From Spirochaetaceae bacterium (lineage in GTDB: Bacteria > Spirochaetota > Spirochaetia > DSM-27196 > SLAA01): a stretch of DNA of 42,679 nucleotides. The stretch covers positions 1-42,679 of the forward strand of contig PWQX01000071.1 of assembly GCA_003556605.1 (NCBI GenBank), read 5' to 3'. Below, in pieces: positions 29,956 to 36,688 of the stretch (position 1 is its first letter; every line of letters begins with the position of its first letter). Both the position numbers and the translations under genes were made by a program. The notes under the pieces are model-generated. The model did no database searches and had not been told where the DNA came from. It was given only the letters and a program-made list of their open reading frames with translations.

Positions 29956-30951
29956 TTAGAGCAGGCCCTCAGCGGCAATAGCGTCAGCCTGCGCGCGCAA
30001 GTCCTCGATCTCGGTGGTCCAAAATGCTTTGGTACCCCAGTCCGGGTGTACCGACTGGAACCAGAAATCATGACGTTGCCTGGCGCGCCAGACCAGGAAG
30101 TATACGATTCGCATGAAGCGCAGAGGTTCGATCAGGCACAAGGTATGGCGCTCAAACGGGACGAATTGTTCGTATCCGTCGAGCAGCATGGTGAGTTCGC
30201 GCCGGCAGTTGAATGCGTGATCGGGCAGCAGCAACCACAAGTCCTGCACCGCCGGCGCGTTCATCATATCGTCGAAATCAATCAGCAGCAGCCCGTCGCC
30301 CGGGCGGTCGAGAATGTTGCCGCGGTGGCAGTCACCGTGTACCCGTTGGTAGGTGGGCTCGTCGAATAGGGGTGCTACCGCAGGCAACACAGCGCGGCAG
30401 AGGTCTTCAAGCTCGGCGCGGCAGTCGGGGTGCACCACCGCTTCACTCAGCAACTCATCGAGGTAGCTCATGCTGAGAGCAGGACAGCAGGTCAGGCGGT
30501 GTTCGGCGCTCCGTGCGCGGCCGGTGAGATGACAGCGCCCAATGACGGCGCCGAGGCGGAACCACTGGTCGTCGGTTTCGGCGTCGAAGTTGCGGCCTCC
30601 CTTCTTCGGGAATAGCGCAAACGCAAAACTCTCTTCAGCGTCTGAGCCCTCAACCGCTACTTCGTGCAACGTGTCACCGTCGCTATCCGAAAGCGGGGCC
30701 ACCACCGGTATCTCAGAGCGCGCACAGTCGGCGAGAAACTGGTGCTCGTCCTCCAGCGCTTCCCAGCTCCAGCGGCCGGGGCGATAGAACTTCGCGACTA
30801 ATTCCTCGCCGTTGTCGGTGCGCAGGCCGTAGACTCGGTTCACGTAACTCGGATATGGATACACCATGCCGTCCAGCGTGAGCGCGAAACTCTGCTCAAC
30901 CGCCTGCACCGCGGCTTGGGGCGTCAGTAGATCAAAAACGCGGGCGAGCAC
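29956..30951 (-). CDS. srkA: SrkA/YihE-like stress response kinase
   Basis: A 331-residue aminoglycoside-phosphotransferase-fold kinase. E. coli SrkA (328 residues) is a Ser/Thr kinase that protects cells in stress. The lysine motif is ELVAKFYRPGRW, the catalytic loop is VHGDCHRGNILD and the metal site is LLIDFDDMMNAP. The start is GTG (30949-30951) with AAGGAAC 5 bases upstream. It begins 18 bp after the phosphatidylcholine synthase gene on the same strand, so it is probably co-transcribed. The real substrate is not indicated. Confidence 0.88.
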   Translation of the reverse strand: MLARVFDLLTPQAAVQAVEQSFALTLDGMVYPYPSYVNRVYGLRTDNGEELVAKFYRPGRWSWEALEDEHQFLADCARSEIPVVAPLSDSDGDTLHEVAVEGSDAEESFAFALFPKKGGRNFDAETDDQWFRLGAVIGRCHLTGRARSAEHRLTCCPALSMSYLDELLSEAVVHPDCRAELEDLCRAVLPAVAPLFDEPTYQRVHGDCHRGNILDRPGDGLLLIDFDDMMNAPAVQDLWLLLPDHAFNCRRELTMLLDGYEQFVPFERHTLCLIEPLRFMRIVYFLVWRARQRHDFWFQSVHPDWGTKAFWTTEIEDLRAQADAIAAEGLL

Positions 30952-30969
30952 AATTGTTCCTTGAGCCGC

Positions 30970-31785
30970 TTAATCAGGTTGACTGGCAGCCGGGTTCCAG
31001 GCTACCTCGGAATCAGGTTCGTCACTGGCGGACGGGTCGGGCTCCATCACGCCAGGCTCGCGCATACTGCTCTTCGTCGCGGATTTCCGCTTCTTATAGA
31101 CCAGCGCAAACGACAGGATCACGTAGTAGATCGGGTAAAACAACGAGACCATCGGCAGCCACGCGGGCGTAGCGTTGAGATAGTACATCATAATAAGAAC
31201 GATTGCCATATACACCGTCGACAGTACCATTGTTGTGGTGTACCAGTGCGGGGTGCGACTGGGGTAGAGGAACTTAAATGGAATCAGAACCATCACCGCG
31301 CATATCAGCATAATCGCTGACCCGGTCACCGGTCCTAACTCAAACAGATAGGTGTACAGCACCAGCACGTTCCAATACGACGGGAAACCGCGAAAGAAGT
31401 TGTCGGTTGTCTTGGCTTCGGTATGGCTGAAGCCAAACACGCTGGCGATCAGTGCGGTTACGCACACCCAAAACGGTATGCCGAGAAAACTCCACGCCCA
31501 GAACAACGGGACGAAGGTCCAGGTGAGGTAGTCCACTAGGTTGTCCAACAGTCCGCCGTCGATCTGCGGCAAGCGGCGGTGAATGTCTAGACGCCGGGCA
31601 ACCGTTCCATCGAAGGCATCGATCACGGCCGCTAGTGCCAACACTCGCAGAGCCTGCCCGCCGTCCCCCTCCACGATCAAGACCACAGCCCAGAAAGCCA
31701 GTAATGCACCCGAAGCGGTAAGGAGATGAACTGCCAACGCAGTGGCTATGTTTGGTAGTTTAGATATGGATTTACGAAAACTCAT
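30970..31785 (-). CDS. pcs: Phosphatidylcholine synthase
   Basis: Integral inner-membrane CDP-alcohol phosphotransferase that makes phosphatidylcholine from CDP-diacylglycerol and choline. The 271-residue protein has the Pcs-type signature DAFDGTVARRLDIH then LPQIDGGLLDNLVDY, with a longer gap between AR and G than in other CDP-alcohol phosphotransferases; this gap marks Pcs. About seven membrane segments follow. The C-terminal 35 residues are a charged tail. The ATG (31783-31785) has no Shine-Dalgarno; CATAAT ends 6 bases upstream. Confidence 0.88.
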   Translation of the reverse strand: MSFRKSISKLPNIATALAVHLLTASGALLAFWAVVLIVEGDGGQALRVLALAAVIDAFDGTVARRLDIHRRLPQIDGGLLDNLVDYLTWTFVPLFWAWSFLGIPFWVCVTALIASVFGFSHTEAKTTDNFFRGFPSYWNVLVLYTYLFELGPVTGSAIMLICAVMVLIPFKFLYPSRTPHWYTTTMVLSTVYMAIVLIMMYYLNATPAWLPMVSLFYPIYYVILSFALVYKKRKSATKSSMREPGVMEPDPSASDEPDSEVAWNPAASQPD

Positions 31786-31910
31786 GAACGTATTATGCAA
31801 GAAAACCTGTTGTCCTTTGGGTTCGCAGCATTGCGCTTCACCCCGGTGGCACACCGTATCACGGGAAGCTTCATAATAGGGGAAGCTGGGAAACTCTTCA
31901 AGAGGGCGTT

Positions 31911-32585
31911 CTACCGGAACTCCAGATACTCTGTTGATGCCTGGGAGAGGTCGCTATAGTAACCGCGTAGCTCTTCGGGCATCAGCAACGCAAGCTGATA
32001 CATCATTTCGTCGATCATTCTGCGCCGGTCACCGCTTGTGATGGGCTCGTTACCAGGCTTGCGCACATAGAATGGCGTACCCACGCGAACCGTTACCGGC
32101 GTCCTGCGCAATCGTTTGAGGTTGCGGCTAAGGTTGACCAGTCCCCACTGCGCCACCGGGTAGACCGGGACGTCCTTGCTGGTCGCCAAGAACGTCGCGC
32201 CGGGATGGCCCTGCCCGAGTACGCCGGTTTTGCTGCGTGTACCTTCGGCGGCGACACCCAAGAATCGTCCATCGTCCAATGCCTGCAGCGCTGCGCGCAT
32301 CGCGGTACTGTCGACACGCCCCCGGTTAATCGGAATGATGTGCCATGTAGTCATGAAAAACCGGGTGATCGGGTTTTGCCAGAGCTCGCGCTTGGCAAGG
32401 GCGGTCGCTTGACGGGGGCTGAGAAGGACGTAAATCATCGGCCCTTCTATATAGGTGGTATGGTTCGCGAGGAGAATACCCGGCCCGTTGTCCGGAATCT
32501 GCTCGAGCTCATGGGTTTCGAGCTTACACGCGATTCGCAACGCCAGCCGAACGATCACGTTTAGCACACGTTCTCGGAAAGACAC
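31911..32585 (-). CDS. plsC: PlsC-like 1-acylglycerol-3-phosphate acyltransferase
   Basis: A 224-residue glycerolipid acyltransferase. Motif I is NHTTYIEGP: the catalytic His is followed by four residues and Glu (HX4E) instead of the usual HX4D, as in a clade I recall. Motif II is HIIPINRGRVD and motif III AAEGTRSKTG. The start is GTG (32583-32585) with GGGAGG 6 bases upstream. The frame stays open far upstream over the divergent membrane protein gene, but only this part is homologous. With Pcs and SrkA it forms a phospholipid cluster; it is separated from pcs by 125 bp. Confidence 0.82.
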   Translation of the reverse strand: MSFRERVLNVIVRLALRIACKLETHELEQIPDNGPGILLANHTTYIEGPMIYVLLSPRQATALAKRELWQNPITRFFMTTWHIIPINRGRVDSTAMRAALQALDDGRFLGVAAEGTRSKTGVLGQGHPGATFLATSKDVPVYPVAQWGLVNLSRNLKRLRRTPVTVRVGTPFYVRKPGNEPITSGDRRRMIDEMMYQLALLMPEELRGYYSDLSQASTEYLEFR

Positions 32586-32762
32586 TGCGGCCTCCCTCTT
32601 GTCGTCTCCATAATGAGCTAACGCGCTAACTGTACCGGCTTTTCCGAGGCGAAACAAGTGTTCGTACCAAACGCACGACTCTAAGTGCTCACCGGCGGTG
32701 CTGCGCAATTGCGTCCGCCCGGCAATTGCATTACGATTCGGCGCAGTAGGTGGTAAGAACGC

Positions 32763-33836
32763 ATGCGACTCGAAAACATTCGCCGGAGAGGACAGCTCGG
32801 GCTGTTCGTTTTGGATTTCTTGATGGTGGTCGTGCTGTTGGTCAACCTCAGCTGGATCGTGTTCGATTGGTTGTTCAGTTACGGCCCCGTGCGTGATTTG
32901 CTGGCACAGTTCGCCCCGGAGTTCGTCGAGCGCTATGCGCTCGAGATACACCCGCGCTTCATTCTCATCGATTTGGTATTCGTCGGGGTGTTTATGATCG
33001 AGTTCTTCGTGGCATGGATGTTGGCGATACGCAGTCGCTTGTACCATCGCTGGTTCTTCTACCCTGTGCTGCACTGGTACGACATCATGGGCTTGATTCC
33101 GATCGGCGGGTTTCGGTTTTTGCGTTTGTTGCGCATTATCTCTATCGTCTACCGGTTGCAGCGCGTCGGGGTGGTCGACCTCTCCGGGAGTGCGCCGGTA
33201 CGGTTTGTGCATAAGTACTACGCAGTGGTTATGGAGGAGTTGTCGGACCGTGTTACGATCAATATCCTCGCCGATCTGCAAGACGAGGTTCGCCATGGGG
33301 GACCGGTGGCGGACAGAATCCTCAGCGATGTCGTCAGACCGCACAAAGACGAGCTGGTTGAATGGTTGTCGCACCGGATTGAGGCGGTCGCGGCCCGCCA
33401 CTATCCCCGCTATCAGCCAAGGATCCGCTCGTACGTACAAGACCGCATCAACCACGCATTCAACGCCAACAGAGAATTCGTGCGGCTCGAGCAGATTCCC
33501 GTATTCGGTTCGCTGATACGCGGGGTAATGGAAAAGGCGATCAACGATGTGGTGTTTGACGTCGTCAACGGCATTATGCAGGACCTCGCTTCCGACCGCA
33601 ACCGAGCGCTGCTCGATGAGCTTGCCGAGCTCACGTTTGAGGCCGTTTTGCTGCACGAGGAAGAGTCACCTTTAGGGCGTATTGTCGCCGATACCGTGGA
33701 CCGATCGCTGGAAATCCTGAAACAGCATGTGCGTGTCCAGCGCTGGAAGATCCGTGATAACTCAGAAGATGAAGAGCAGTTTCGACGACGGCTGCGCGAC
33801 GAGCTCGAGCGCGCAGTGAAAGAAACCGTGGTATAG
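32763..33836 (+). CDS. Voltage-sensor-like membrane protein without a pore
   Basis: A 357-residue protein. Hydrophobic spans at about 11-34 (S1), 66-88 (S2, with acidic E80) and 98-115 (S3, WYDIMG with D107) lead to an S4-like segment with Arg at 118, 121 and 124 (RFLRLLRI), plus R131 and R134. This is the layout of a voltage-sensing domain. No S5-pore-S6 follows; residues 140-357 are soluble, charged and helical with no membrane span. It may be a stand-alone sensor or proton-channel-like protein; the similarity is by eye. It ends directly before tryptophanase. Confidence 0.65.
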   Translation: MRLENIRRRGQLGLFVLDFLMVVVLLVNLSWIVFDWLFSYGPVRDLLAQFAPEFVERYALEIHPRFILIDLVFVGVFMIEFFVAWMLAIRSRLYHRWFFYPVLHWYDIMGLIPIGGFRFLRLLRIISIVYRLQRVGVVDLSGSAPVRFVHKYYAVVMEELSDRVTINILADLQDEVRHGGPVADRILSDVVRPHKDELVEWLSHRIEAVAARHYPRYQPRIRSYVQDRINHAFNANREFVRLEQIPVFGSLIRGVMEKAINDVVFDVVNGIMQDLASDRNRALLDELAELTFEAVLLHEEESPLGRIVADTVDRSLEILKQHVRVQRWKIRDNSEDEEQFRRRLRDELERAVKETVV

Positions 33837-33846: not shown

Positions 33847-35214
33847 ATGAAGACTATTATTGAACCCTTTCGCATTAAGTCGGTGGAGCCGATTCGGGTA
33901 ACCACTAAGGAGGAGCGGGCCAAATGTATCCGTGAGGCAGGCTATAATCTGTTTAACCTGCATTCAGACGACGTGATGATCGACCTACTCACTGATTCCG
34001 GCACCTCTGCGATGAGCGCCGGGCAGTGGTCGGGGATCATGCAGGGCGATGAGAGCTACGCGGGGTCGCCGTCGTACTATCGCTTTGAGCGTGCCGTGAA
34101 AGACCTCATGCCGTTTGAGCACGTCATCCCCACGCACCAAGGCCGGGCAGCGGAGAAGATTCTGTTCACAGTTGCGGCCAACAAGGGTGCCACGATCCCG
34201 AGCAACACGCATTTCGACACCACCAGGGCGAATGTTGAGATGTCGGGTGCCGAGGCAATTGACCTGGTAATTGCCGAGGGCAAGGACCCTGCCGACGAGT
34301 ACCCGTTCAAGGGCAATATGGATCTTGAGGCGCTGGAGCGGCTGCTTAGCGACGCGCACGACCGAATCCCTCTTGTGATGCTTACGATCACGAACAACAC
34401 CGGCGGCGGGCAGCCGGTCTCAATGGAAAACATGCGCGGCGTGCGTGAAGTGTGTTCCCGCTACAAGGTGCCGCTGTTCTACGACGCGTGCCGCTTCGCC
34501 GAGAATGCGTATCTGATAAAAACCCGTGAGCCCGGTTACGCGGATGTTTCGGTGCCGGATATCGTACGTGAGATGTTTTCGTACGCCGACGGAATGACAA
34601 TGAGCGCCAAGAAAGATGCGTTCGTGAATATCGGTGGGTGGCTTGCACTCAACAACGGCGACTGGGCCGATCAGGCGCGCAATATCCTCATTCTCACCGA
34701 GGGCTTTCCAACCTACGGAGGCCTTGCCGGGCGAGACCTCGAGGCGATTGCAATCGGCCTGCAGGAGATTGTTGCGGAGGACTACCTGCGGTATCGTATG
34801 GCCTCAATGCAGTATCTCGGTAACGCCTTGACGCGAATCGGCGTACCAATCGTGAAACCGGTTGGCGGGCACGCGGTGTATATCGACGCGCGCACTCTGT
34901 TGCCGCACATACCGCCGCTCGCGTACCCGGGGCAGGCGTTGGCGGTGGCGCTGTACGTGGAAGGCGGAATTCGCGCGTGCGAGATTGGAACGGTGATGTT
35001 CGGAATGCAGCCCGACGGCAGCGAACAAGCCGCACCGCTGGACCTCGTGCGGCTTGCGATTCCGCGACGGGTGTATACCCAGAGCCATGTGGACTACGTA
35101 ATTGAGTGTATTGAGAACCTGTACACATGCAAGAACCAGCTTCCGGGTTATCGCATCGAATGGCAGCCACGATTCTTGCGCCACTTCACGGCTCGATTTC
35201 TTCAGCTTGCTTAG
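33847..35214 (+). CDS. tnaA: Tryptophanase (tryptophan indole-lyase)
   Basis: PLP-dependent beta-eliminating lyase converting tryptophan to indole, pyruvate and ammonia. The 455-residue protein shows EPFRIKSVE, the DSGTSAMS region, PTHQGRAAEK, TITNNTGGGQPVS and the PLP lysine K256 in TMSAKKDAF. Tyrosine phenol-lyase has Arg (R381) at the position occupied here by I380 in IRACEIG, as in tryptophanase, which favours TnaA. The ATG is fixed by the conserved N-terminus. No tnaB transporter or tnaC leader is present. TrpR is elsewhere in the window. Confidence 0.9.
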   Translation: MKTIIEPFRIKSVEPIRVTTKEERAKCIREAGYNLFNLHSDDVMIDLLTDSGTSAMSAGQWSGIMQGDESYAGSPSYYRFERAVKDLMPFEHVIPTHQGRAAEKILFTVAANKGATIPSNTHFDTTRANVEMSGAEAIDLVIAEGKDPADEYPFKGNMDLEALERLLSDAHDRIPLVMLTITNNTGGGQPVSMENMRGVREVCSRYKVPLFYDACRFAENAYLIKTREPGYADVSVPDIVREMFSYADGMTMSAKKDAFVNIGGWLALNNGDWADQARNILILTEGFPTYGGLAGRDLEAIAIGLQEIVAEDYLRYRMASMQYLGNALTRIGVPIVKPVGGHAVYIDARTLLPHIPPLAYPGQALAVALYVEGGIRACEIGTVMFGMQPDGSEQAAPLDLVRLAIPRRVYTQSHVDYVIECIENLYTCKNQLPGYRIEWQPRFLRHFTARFLQLA

Positions 35215-35240
35215 GCCGGGCAGAGTGCGTGCGCGCCGCG

Positions 35241-35286
35241 TTGCCAGACTCGGCTTCGGCCGATATACTGGACTCTGCTGAGTCCA
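35241..35286 (+). promoter_or_regulatory. gdhA promoter with palindrome at the start point
   Basis: TTGCCA (35241-35246), 17-bp spacer, TATACT (35264-35269) is a strong sigma-70 pattern. The perfect inverted repeat TGGACTC-TGCT-GAGTCCA (35269-35286) covers the predicted +1 near 35276, so it looks like an operator rather than a leader hairpin. Confidence 0.6.
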
Positions 35287-35347
35287 AAACCGCGATCCAA
35301 TCGCCGACAATGGAGTGCCGGAGGTACTCCAGGGGGGTGAGGCCGGC

Positions 35348-36688
35348 ATGAGTTACACCGACGATATTCTCGACCACGTTCGCAAGAACAACTCTGAACA
35401 GCCCGAGTTCTGCCAAGCGGTGCAGGAGTTTGTGGACTCGCTAACACCGGTACTGGAGAAACGCCCGGATTATCGTAAAGCCAAGATCCTTGAGCGTATG
35501 ACAGAGCCCGAGCGTGTGGTGATGTTCAGGGTACCGTGGATCGACGATGCTGGTGAGTATCAGATTAATCGCGGATTTCGGATACAGTTCAACAGCGTTC
35601 TCGGGCCGTACAAAGGTGGACTGCGCTTCCATCCAACGGTCAATCTCAGCATTCTGAAGTTTCTGGCGTTTGAGCAGACCTACAAGAACGCCTTGACCAC
35701 ACTGTCGATGGGCGGAGCAAAAGGGGGCTCCGACTTCGACCCCAAAGGAAAGTCTGATGCCGAGGTGATGAAGTTCTGCCAGTCGTTCATGACCGAGTTG
35801 TATCGACACATCGGTCAGTACACCGACGTGCCGGCCGGCGACATTGGCGTGGGGCTGCGGGAGATCGGGTATTTGTTCGGGCAGTACAGGCGGCTGGAGA
35901 ACGAGTTTTCCGGCGTTCTGACCGGAAAGTCGGTGAACTGGGGCGGCTCTCTGATACGGCCGGAGGCAACCGGCTACGGTGCGGTCTACTTTGCCGGCGA
36001 AATGCTGGCACACTGCGGGCGGTCGCTGGAAGGCAAGACCTGCGTGATCTCGGGATCGGGGAATGTCGCGCAGTTCACCGCCAAGAAGGCTCTTGAGCTC
36101 GGCGCAACACCGATCACGTTCTCCGACTCCAACGGGTATATCTATGATCCCGACGGCATCGATGCTGAGAAGCTGCGCTTCGTGATGGAGCTGAAGAATA
36201 TCCGTCGCGGGCGTATACAGGAATATAGCGAGCGCTACCCGAGCGCGTCGTTCTATCCCGACGCGCGTCCGTGGGACGTGCCCTGCGAGGCGGCGTTCCC
36301 GAGCGCCACCGAAAACGAGATTCAACTCGCGGATGCGGAACGCCTGGTCGCCAACGGCGTGGAGGTTGTGGCTGAAGGTGCGAATATGCCTACTACGCCC
36401 GAGGCGGTGGATGCCTTACAAAGGGCCGGAGTGTTGTTTGGTCCGGGGAAAGCGGCGAACGCCGGCGGTGTAGCCACCTCCGGATTGGAGATGAGCCAGA
36501 ACTCAATGCGCCTGTCCTGGACGGAGGACGAGGTAGACGGCAGACTTCGCCAAATCATGCGACAAATCCACCAGGCCGCCAGCCAAGCGGCTGAGGAATA
36601 CGGATATTCCGGTAACTACGTGGCCGGCGCGAACATAGCCGGCTTTACGAAGGTGGCCGACGCGATGCTGGATCAAGGGTTGGTGTAG
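35348..36688 (+). CDS. gdhA: NADP-type glutamate dehydrogenase
   Basis: Hexameric enzyme assimilating ammonia into 2-oxoglutarate to make glutamate. The 446-residue protein shows GPYKGGLRFHP, the catalytic lysine motif SMGGAKGGSDFDPKGKSD (NADP-type), PAGDIGVGLREIGYLFGQY and the Rossmann motif ISGSGNVAQF, ending with a family-typical GYSGNYVAGANIAGF. The ATG at 35348 lies after GTGAGG; an upstream GTG would add 11 residues. Its 3' end overlaps the convergent PEP/pyruvate-binding gene by 16 bp. Upstream palindrome suggests regulation. Confidence 0.95.
   Translation: MSYTDDILDHVRKNNSEQPEFCQAVQEFVDSLTPVLEKRPDYRKAKILERMTEPERVVMFRVPWIDDAGEYQINRGFRIQFNSVLGPYKGGLRFHPTVNLSILKFLAFEQTYKNALTTLSMGGAKGGSDFDPKGKSDAEVMKFCQSFMTELYRHIGQYTDVPAGDIGVGLREIGYLFGQYRRLENEFSGVLTGKSVNWGGSLIRPEATGYGAVYFAGEMLAHCGRSLEGKTCVISGSGNVAQFTAKKALELGATPITFSDSNGYIYDPDGIDAEKLRFVMELKNIRRGRIQEYSERYPSASFYPDARPWDVPCEAAFPSATENEIQLADAERLVANGVEVVAEGANMPTTPEAVDALQRAGVLFGPGKAANAGGVATSGLEMSQNSMRLSWTEDEVDGRLRQIMRQIHQAASQAAEEYGYSGNYVAGANIAGFTKVADAMLDQGLV

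Follow-up and report, generated by a model that had tools for sequence, protein, structure and literature searches.

Background

According to a 2023 review, whose authors state that databases were checked, every prokaryotic voltage-sensing domain known so far carries an S5–S6 pore for K+, Na+ or Ca2+, and neither bacteria nor archaea have proteins of the Hv1 type (PMC10377628). In Hv1 itself an acidic residue is required at Asp112; when it is replaced by a non-acidic one, proton selectivity is lost and the protein becomes anion-permeable (PMC10377628). The voltage sensors listed in the relevant part of a 2024 review are channels, Hv1, the sperm Na+/H+ exchanger and the voltage-sensing phosphatases, and that part makes no mention of a bacterial pore-less protein (PMC13095418). 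The bacterial membrane potential is described as dynamic, as active in signalling and as poorly understood in its regulation (PMC10015841).

Here we describe a gene on a 42.7 kb contig from a 3.9 Mb draft spirochaete genome bin. The whole stretch of DNA that was analysed, 42,679 nucleotides, is referred to as the window. An earlier note, made from the letters of the sequence, took the product of this gene for a voltage-sensor-like domain with a soluble tail and no pore, of a kind "rarely reported in bacteria". The remark points the right way and is, if anything, too mild, since the 2023 review reports none (PMC10377628). Our search of the open-access literature found no description of the family to which the protein belongs; preprints and most subscription papers lay outside its scope, hence no claim of priority is made. 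Is this a sensor of membrane potential that works without a channel? Or, does the domain conduct ions itself, respond to something other than voltage, or serve a pore that is encoded elsewhere?

Results

The gene and its layout

The gene starts with ATG at 32763 and its stop codon ends at 33836, giving 357 residues. The earlier note's numbering of E80, D107, R118, R121 and R124 is exact against the translation. Four membrane helices, S1–S4, lead into a tail of about 214 residues that consists of helices and contains no pore. Searched as a single protein against Pfam, NCBIfam and PDB sequences, it has no relevant match. The parts are as follows.

32763..33836 (+): gene for the probable pore-less voltage-sensor-domain protein, 357 aa (open reading frame and translation)
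32796..32876 (+): S1, residues 12–38, with D18, N28 and D35 (AlphaFold2 helix, conservation, spacing)
32877..32957 (+): S1–S2 loop, residues 39–65, with short amphipathic helices at 41–50 and 52–62 (AlphaFold2)
32958..33035 (+): S2, residues 66–91, with the charge-transfer-centre pattern D70-x6-F77-x2-E80, then W85 (AlphaFold2, conservation, spacing)
33051..33101 (+): S3, residues 97–113, short, with D107-x5-P113 (conservation, spacing)
33105..33164 (+): S4, residues 115–134, with R118, R121 and R124, S127 at the next step, and R131 and R134 at the cytoplasmic end (AlphaFold2, conservation)
33165..33191 (+): linker from S4 to the tail, residues 135–143, with the conserved D139 (break between helices in the AlphaFold2 model)
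33192..33293 (+): proximal tail helix, residues 144–177, with a putative role in coupling (AlphaFold2, conservation)
33294..33833 (+): rest of the helical tail, residues 178–357 (AlphaFold2, conservation)

From its charge, the S1–S2 loop is expected to lie outside the cytoplasm.

Conservation of the sensor residues

R118, R121 and R124 are invariant in 92 of 92 aligned homologues, whose identity to the window protein goes down to 21%, and they account for three of the eight invariant columns of this alignment. In one further sequence, outside the 92, R118 is replaced by Lys. The pattern RxxRxxR with neutral spacers arises in 9% of shuffled copies of the window protein, so that the pattern alone is weak evidence; across the aligned sequences it is the conservation of the three arginines, not RxxRxxR itself, that exceeds chance. 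The step after R124 is Ser, Ala, Gly or Thr across the family, and R131 is Arg in 87% and Lys in 13% (this and the following percentages are weighted).

In S2, D70 is Asp in 97% and F73 is Phe in 97%, F77 is Phe in 87%, Tyr in 8% and Leu in 5%, and E80 is Glu in 79%, Asp in 18% and Asn in 3%. In S3, D107 is Asp in 97% and Glu in 3%, and P113 is kept in 100%. S1 shows D18 at 97%, N28 as Asn in 92%, Ser in 5% and Asp in 3%, and D35 at 85%, and Y58 in the S1–S2 loop is kept in 92%. Position 84 is Arg in most homologues and Ala in the window protein, and D139 of the linker is present in 73 of 81 sequences. The earlier note had pointed to S4-like arginines at every third residue and to acidic residues in S2 and S3, and had named R118, R121, R124, E80 and D107 as the positions to follow in a wider family. 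All five are kept across the 92 homologues, the arginines without exception and E80 and D107 nearly so, as in a charge-transfer centre. That these residues are kept so firmly in phyla so far apart speaks for a sensor that works and against the remnant of a channel.

Relation to the sensor domains of channels

Within S1 and S2 the spacing of these anchor residues is that of a BacNav-like channel (TLESWS filter). Both have N-x6-[DE] in S1 with identical spacing (N28-x6-D35 here, N-x6-E in the channel), D-x6-F-x2-E-x3-[RK] in S2 (x3-R in the family, Ala84 in the window protein, K in the channel), an Asp in S3 and R-x2-R-x2-R in S4. They differ in that the channel has four S4 arginines, whereas the family has three at regular spacing. 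In addition, D107 and R118 are 11 residues apart in the family as against 19 in the channel, which makes the S3–S4 turn 8 residues shorter, so that no more than a turn stands in place of the paddle and the outer portion of S3. In the NavAb network, as set out in the part of the 2024 review concerned with it, E32 and N49 lie outside the constriction and E59 and E80 inside (PMC13095418).

Profile comparison points the same way. With hhalign, the family matched channels from the same bacterial order at P = 4.8e-7 (alignment A2), 3.7e-7 (alignment A5) and 4.4e-7 (sensor part alone), and the reversed and 10-column block-shuffled controls gave P from 0.0035 to 0.84. In the reverse direction, a profile of the sensor part run over 249 genomes of Alcanivorax's phylum found, beyond family members, only three matches, all of them pore-bearing: two K+ channels (TVGYGD) and one BacNav-like channel (TLESWS), with E 2.4e-6, 9e-4 and 8e-5. 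Among the Pfam matches below threshold, Ion_trans stood well ahead of all others: it turned up in 22 of 70 full-length members and in 12 of 28 sensor domains, with a best E of 1.2e-4. No member is known to reach the Pfam cut-off for Ion_trans. In a profile search of the PDB the sole channel among the weak matches was a NaChBac-Nav1.7 chimera (E 3.2), and the sensor part alone matched no channel there.

Taken at the level of sequence, the comparisons show that residues ~12–135 make up an S1–S4 domain and that this domain is a homologue of the sensors of bacterial K+ and Na+ channels. That residues 12–135 form a domain of the voltage-sensor type is, in our judgement, very probable, on the combined strength of conservation, anchor spacing, profile–profile comparison and the reverse search. 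The class to which the protein had been assigned on first reading, a voltage-sensor domain without a pore, is thus borne out by the last two of these.

Predicted structure

An AlphaFold2 prediction on 11 sequences was unusable (pLDDT 49) and was repeated with the 92-sequence alignment, which gave a mean pLDDT of 81.6, with the sensor helices mostly at 76–89. The four-helix N-terminal domain that structure prediction had been expected to reveal was obtained, recognised by helix count and order, not by superposition. S3 is short and broken in the model, helical at 99–103 and 105–109. After S4 comes a break, and then only helices to the C-terminus. Because the pTM is 0.51, the arrangement of the tail against the sensor is not to be trusted.

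The best 19-residue Kyte–Doolittle windows score 2.5 for S1 and S2, 1.6 for S4, 0.96 for S3 and 0.97 for residues 135–357. S3 is weakly hydrophobic, so its assignment rests on homology and prediction, not on hydropathy, and together with the short turn this suggests that the S3–S4 pair may pack or move differently. The same Kyte–Doolittle profile has no second hydrophobic pair after S4 in residues 135–357, and a selectivity filter like TVGYG or TLESW is absent from all 92 members. The S5-P-S6 pore of voltage-gated ion channels was thus looked for and not found, and with no later hydrophobic helices and no filter motif the earlier view that there is no pore region stands. Foldseek, queried against the PDB with the full-length model, which is mostly long tail helices, returned nothing significant (best E 0.92; NavMs at rank 22, E 4.2), so that fold comparison alone gives the assignment no support.

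The helical tail

About 190 residues of the tail are conserved. The proximal helix, directly behind S4, is the most conserved part outside the membrane (K151, Y152, E158, E159, S161, D162, R163, V164, Q173 and E175). Conserved residues of the distal tail are P193, Y224, P246, G249, D274, K320, V323 and W328, and the last 20–25 residues are variable or missing in homologues. A tail profile run over 249 genomes of Alcanivorax's phylum matched only full sensor–tail proteins, with no tail-only proteins elsewhere in these 249 genomes; the tail therefore appears to be private to this architecture. Pfam and NCBIfam scans found no phosphatase or other enzyme family in it. DUF445, suggested by one match (E 0.085), was rejected as a relative, as hhalign gave P = 0.01 against 0.03–0.05 for reversed controls. 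The tail of ~210 residues that had been called unknown is thus ~214 residues long and resembles nothing that was tested.

Distribution of the family

Judged by its sequence, the protein is a member of a widespread, uncatalogued family. At least 280 loci came out of a two-pattern scan in which each species was represented by one genome, and 80 of them were fetched. The main phyla are Balneolota, Bacteroidota, Pseudomonadota (Alcanivorax, Alloalcanivorax, Halomonas and Ketobacter) and Spirochaetota, and the fetched loci also include Rhodothermota, Myxococcota, Calditrichota and a Desulfohalobiaceae bin. Drawn samples of genomes gave the family in 11 of 395 from the class of the window, 12–13 of 299 from Alcanivorax's phylum and 8 of 248 from Bernardetia's phylum. 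The last count was taken after removal of a false positive, the Bacteroidota match L154, which was discarded as an RNA polymerase by its sequence.

Besides the genome of the window itself, 10 of the 40 relatives searched carry full-length homologues. In the four nearest, which are Spirochaetaceae or Spirochaetales bins, from sediments by their sample names, the homologue is 80–81% identical. Among the closer homologues are also Balneolota bins from the same sample series as the nearest spirochaete relatives. In the tree the spirochaete copies are nested with good support among Balneolota copies, a placement that fits lateral transfer. A distant member of 262 aa (L145) keeps the S3–S4 motif and has a reduced tail.

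An Acinetobacter baumannii homologue (L097:5935-6981, CP040048.1) is 27% identical to the Alcanivorax protein. Immediately downstream of it, on the same strand, come minC-minD-minE; no other lineage examined was seen to have this neighbourhood. The Acinetobacter homologue also adjoins an acyltransferase, which is not part of a general pattern. L097 is labelled "preprotein translocase subunit SecA", a name carried by some Acinetobacter records. No SecA model is among the Pfam or NCBIfam matches, and the label looks like a propagated error.

Genomic neighbourhood

Upstream of the gene in the window, at 29956–32630 on the minus strand, Pfam identifies an APH-type phosphotransferase, a CDP-alcohol phosphatidyltransferase and an acyltransferase. 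Downstream, at 33847–36688 on the plus strand, are a beta-eliminating lyase (tryptophanase-like), which begins 10 bases past the stop of the sensor gene, and a glutamate dehydrogenase. The upstream order of acyltransferase and phosphatidyltransferase is kept only inside the genus of the window. Elsewhere the neighbours, assigned by eye, are exonuclease III and a response regulator in Alcanivorax and QueG in Balneolales. In the lineages examined no conserved gene partner points to an output; neighbourhoods are kept only within lineages, and therefore indicate no functional partner. The PADLOC scan for defence systems gave no match. At two halophilic Bacteroidetes loci (L047 and L062), cysteine-rich open reading frames such as CESDCPAPPCCWSFFCHPLMFC lie directly downstream of the family gene; by eye, these are more likely wrong-frame reading frames in GC-rich DNA than genes.

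A second pore-less family in spirochaetes

The same spirochaete order contains a second pore-less voltage-sensor-domain family of ~375 aa (alignment A4; loci L119:1477-2616, L117:1483-2991, L118:1462-2592, L122, L123, L126, L127 and L130). In its members S4 carries KAIRIARVLRLLRVLKIF, and S1–S4 are followed by TM5, a further domain ~110 residues long, TM6 and the conserved sequence TVSDPIHVMxRG, which may be HAMP-like. The sensor domain of this family scores above the cut-off of Ion_trans (for L119, E 2.9e-12), whereas that of the window family falls below it. The profile of the second family matches Kv1.2 weakly in the PDB (E 0.019), and the family looks like a hybrid of voltage sensor and receptor. 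A divergent member is found in the genome of the window (contig C150:1334-1717, locus L132); its S4 has fewer arginines (AAFRIAALLRILRVLPVF) and its S3 lacks the Asp, so that voltage sensing may have been lost.

Discussion

What might a sensor domain do without a pore? The sensor fold is well supported; that it senses voltage and has an output is what we infer from it. On balance we favour a receptor for membrane potential, that is, a non-conducting voltage sensor with a private cytoplasmic output, and consider this the probable function of the protein. The N-terminus and the tail would both be cytoplasmic. A change in membrane potential would move R118, R121 and R124 past F77, and the arginines would exchange partners between D35 and D70 on the outer side and E80 and D107 on the inner side. 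S4 would pull on the linker and the proximal helix (residues 135–177), the putative coupling element, and the pull would alter the shape, oligomerisation or partner binding of the tail. A point against it is that S4 places just three charges in the membrane, with Ser at the fourth position.

The same point speaks for the alternative that survives best, in which the fold is that of a sensor, S4 does not respond to voltage, and the protein senses lipid, tension or a ligand or acts as a scaffold for the tail. The short S3, the short S3–S4 turn and the three charges would suit such a role. Some six-helix channels, such as the CNG channels, retain their S4 charges without voltage dependence. Additionally, many of the fetched loci come, by their record names, from halophiles and from bins of salt-lake or soda-lake sediment, where osmotic or lipid sensing is plausible. 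However, F77, E80, D107 and the three arginines are kept in 92 sequences, which is beyond the need of a passive scaffold, and we regard this alternative as unlikely.

Does the domain itself conduct protons or another ion as Hv1 does, with the tail serving to regulate or dimerise it? Three S4 arginines at Hv1 spacing followed by a small polar residue, and the lack of a pore domain, are consistent with this, and S1–S4 domains are described as carrying proton or omega currents upon residue changes (PMC13095418). However, the position equivalent to Asp112, which we place at N28 from the N-x6-[DE] spacing with no Hv1 in the alignment, is Asn in 92% (weighted). Likewise, RxWRxxR is absent; the family has R-x-[LFA]-R-x-x-R, with position 120 Leu in 86%, Phe in 11% and Ala in 3% (weighted). 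The Asn at this position and the absent motif make a proton channel less likely, and a channel has no need of a large conserved tail. We give conduction by the sensor domain slightly less credence than a role other than voltage sensing. The resemblance to "proton channels or voltage-controlled enzymes" noted at the outset is therefore disfavoured in its first half, for want of the Hv1 selectivity Asp and of RxWRxxR.

If the protein were a free-standing sensor subunit that joins a pore encoded by another gene, it would have a precedent: separate sensor and pore chains are described as able to function together (PMC6013512). Yet the lineages examined have no neighbouring pore gene and their neighbours vary from lineage to lineage, three of five draft genomes of the window genus lack any Ion_trans match, and the single Ion_trans match in the window's own genome is a pore-less protein of another family. 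We consider such a split channel highly improbable. That the protein has no voltage-sensor domain at all, being either a set of four hydrophobic helices with an accidental arginine repeat, as its position below all curated cut-offs and the RxxRxxR of the shuffled copies might suggest, or a true SecA-related protein, as the Acinetobacter label would have it, we can dismiss almost entirely, since the profile comparison, the reverse search and the exact anchor spacing contradict the former and no scan gave a SecA family match for the latter.

The preferred reading, a receptor for membrane potential, would give bacteria a direct molecular route to read their own membrane potential. The at least 280 loci over several phyla contradict the statement of the 2023 review that prokaryotic sensors always carry a pore. 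If a dedicated sensor is present in the culturable Alcanivorax and Halomonas, two questions become testable: whether bacteria sense their membrane potential by means of a protein, and what such a protein controls.

Comparison with known systems

The Ion_trans (PF00520) channels, both BacNav and bacterial Kv-type, have the order S1–S4 in common with the family, but S5, pore and S6 are absent from it. Hv1 is also a pore-less S1–S4 protein with three S4 arginines at every third position; it ends in a short coiled coil, in contrast to the conserved tail of ~190 residues here. TMEM266 likewise has a pore-less sensor domain, with cytoplasmic termini and a function that is unknown (PMC6392501). It is a human and vertebrate protein whose termini are partly structured with a coiled coil, and the likeness is drawn from its described architecture. 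The voltage-sensing phosphatases (Ci-VSP, TPTE) likewise join a sensor domain without a pore to a domain in the cytoplasm; they are eukaryotic and their effector is a PTEN-like phosphatase, whereas the domain here is unrelated, all-helical and without a family match. If our reading is right, the sensor module has been put to non-channel use in bacteria too, as it has in eukaryotes. We hold with about as much doubt as belief that the family as a whole consists of widespread bacterial receptors for membrane potential, in which a canonical pore-less sensor would drive a helical effector of a kind not described before, as a prokaryotic counterpart of the voltage-sensing phosphatases with a different output.
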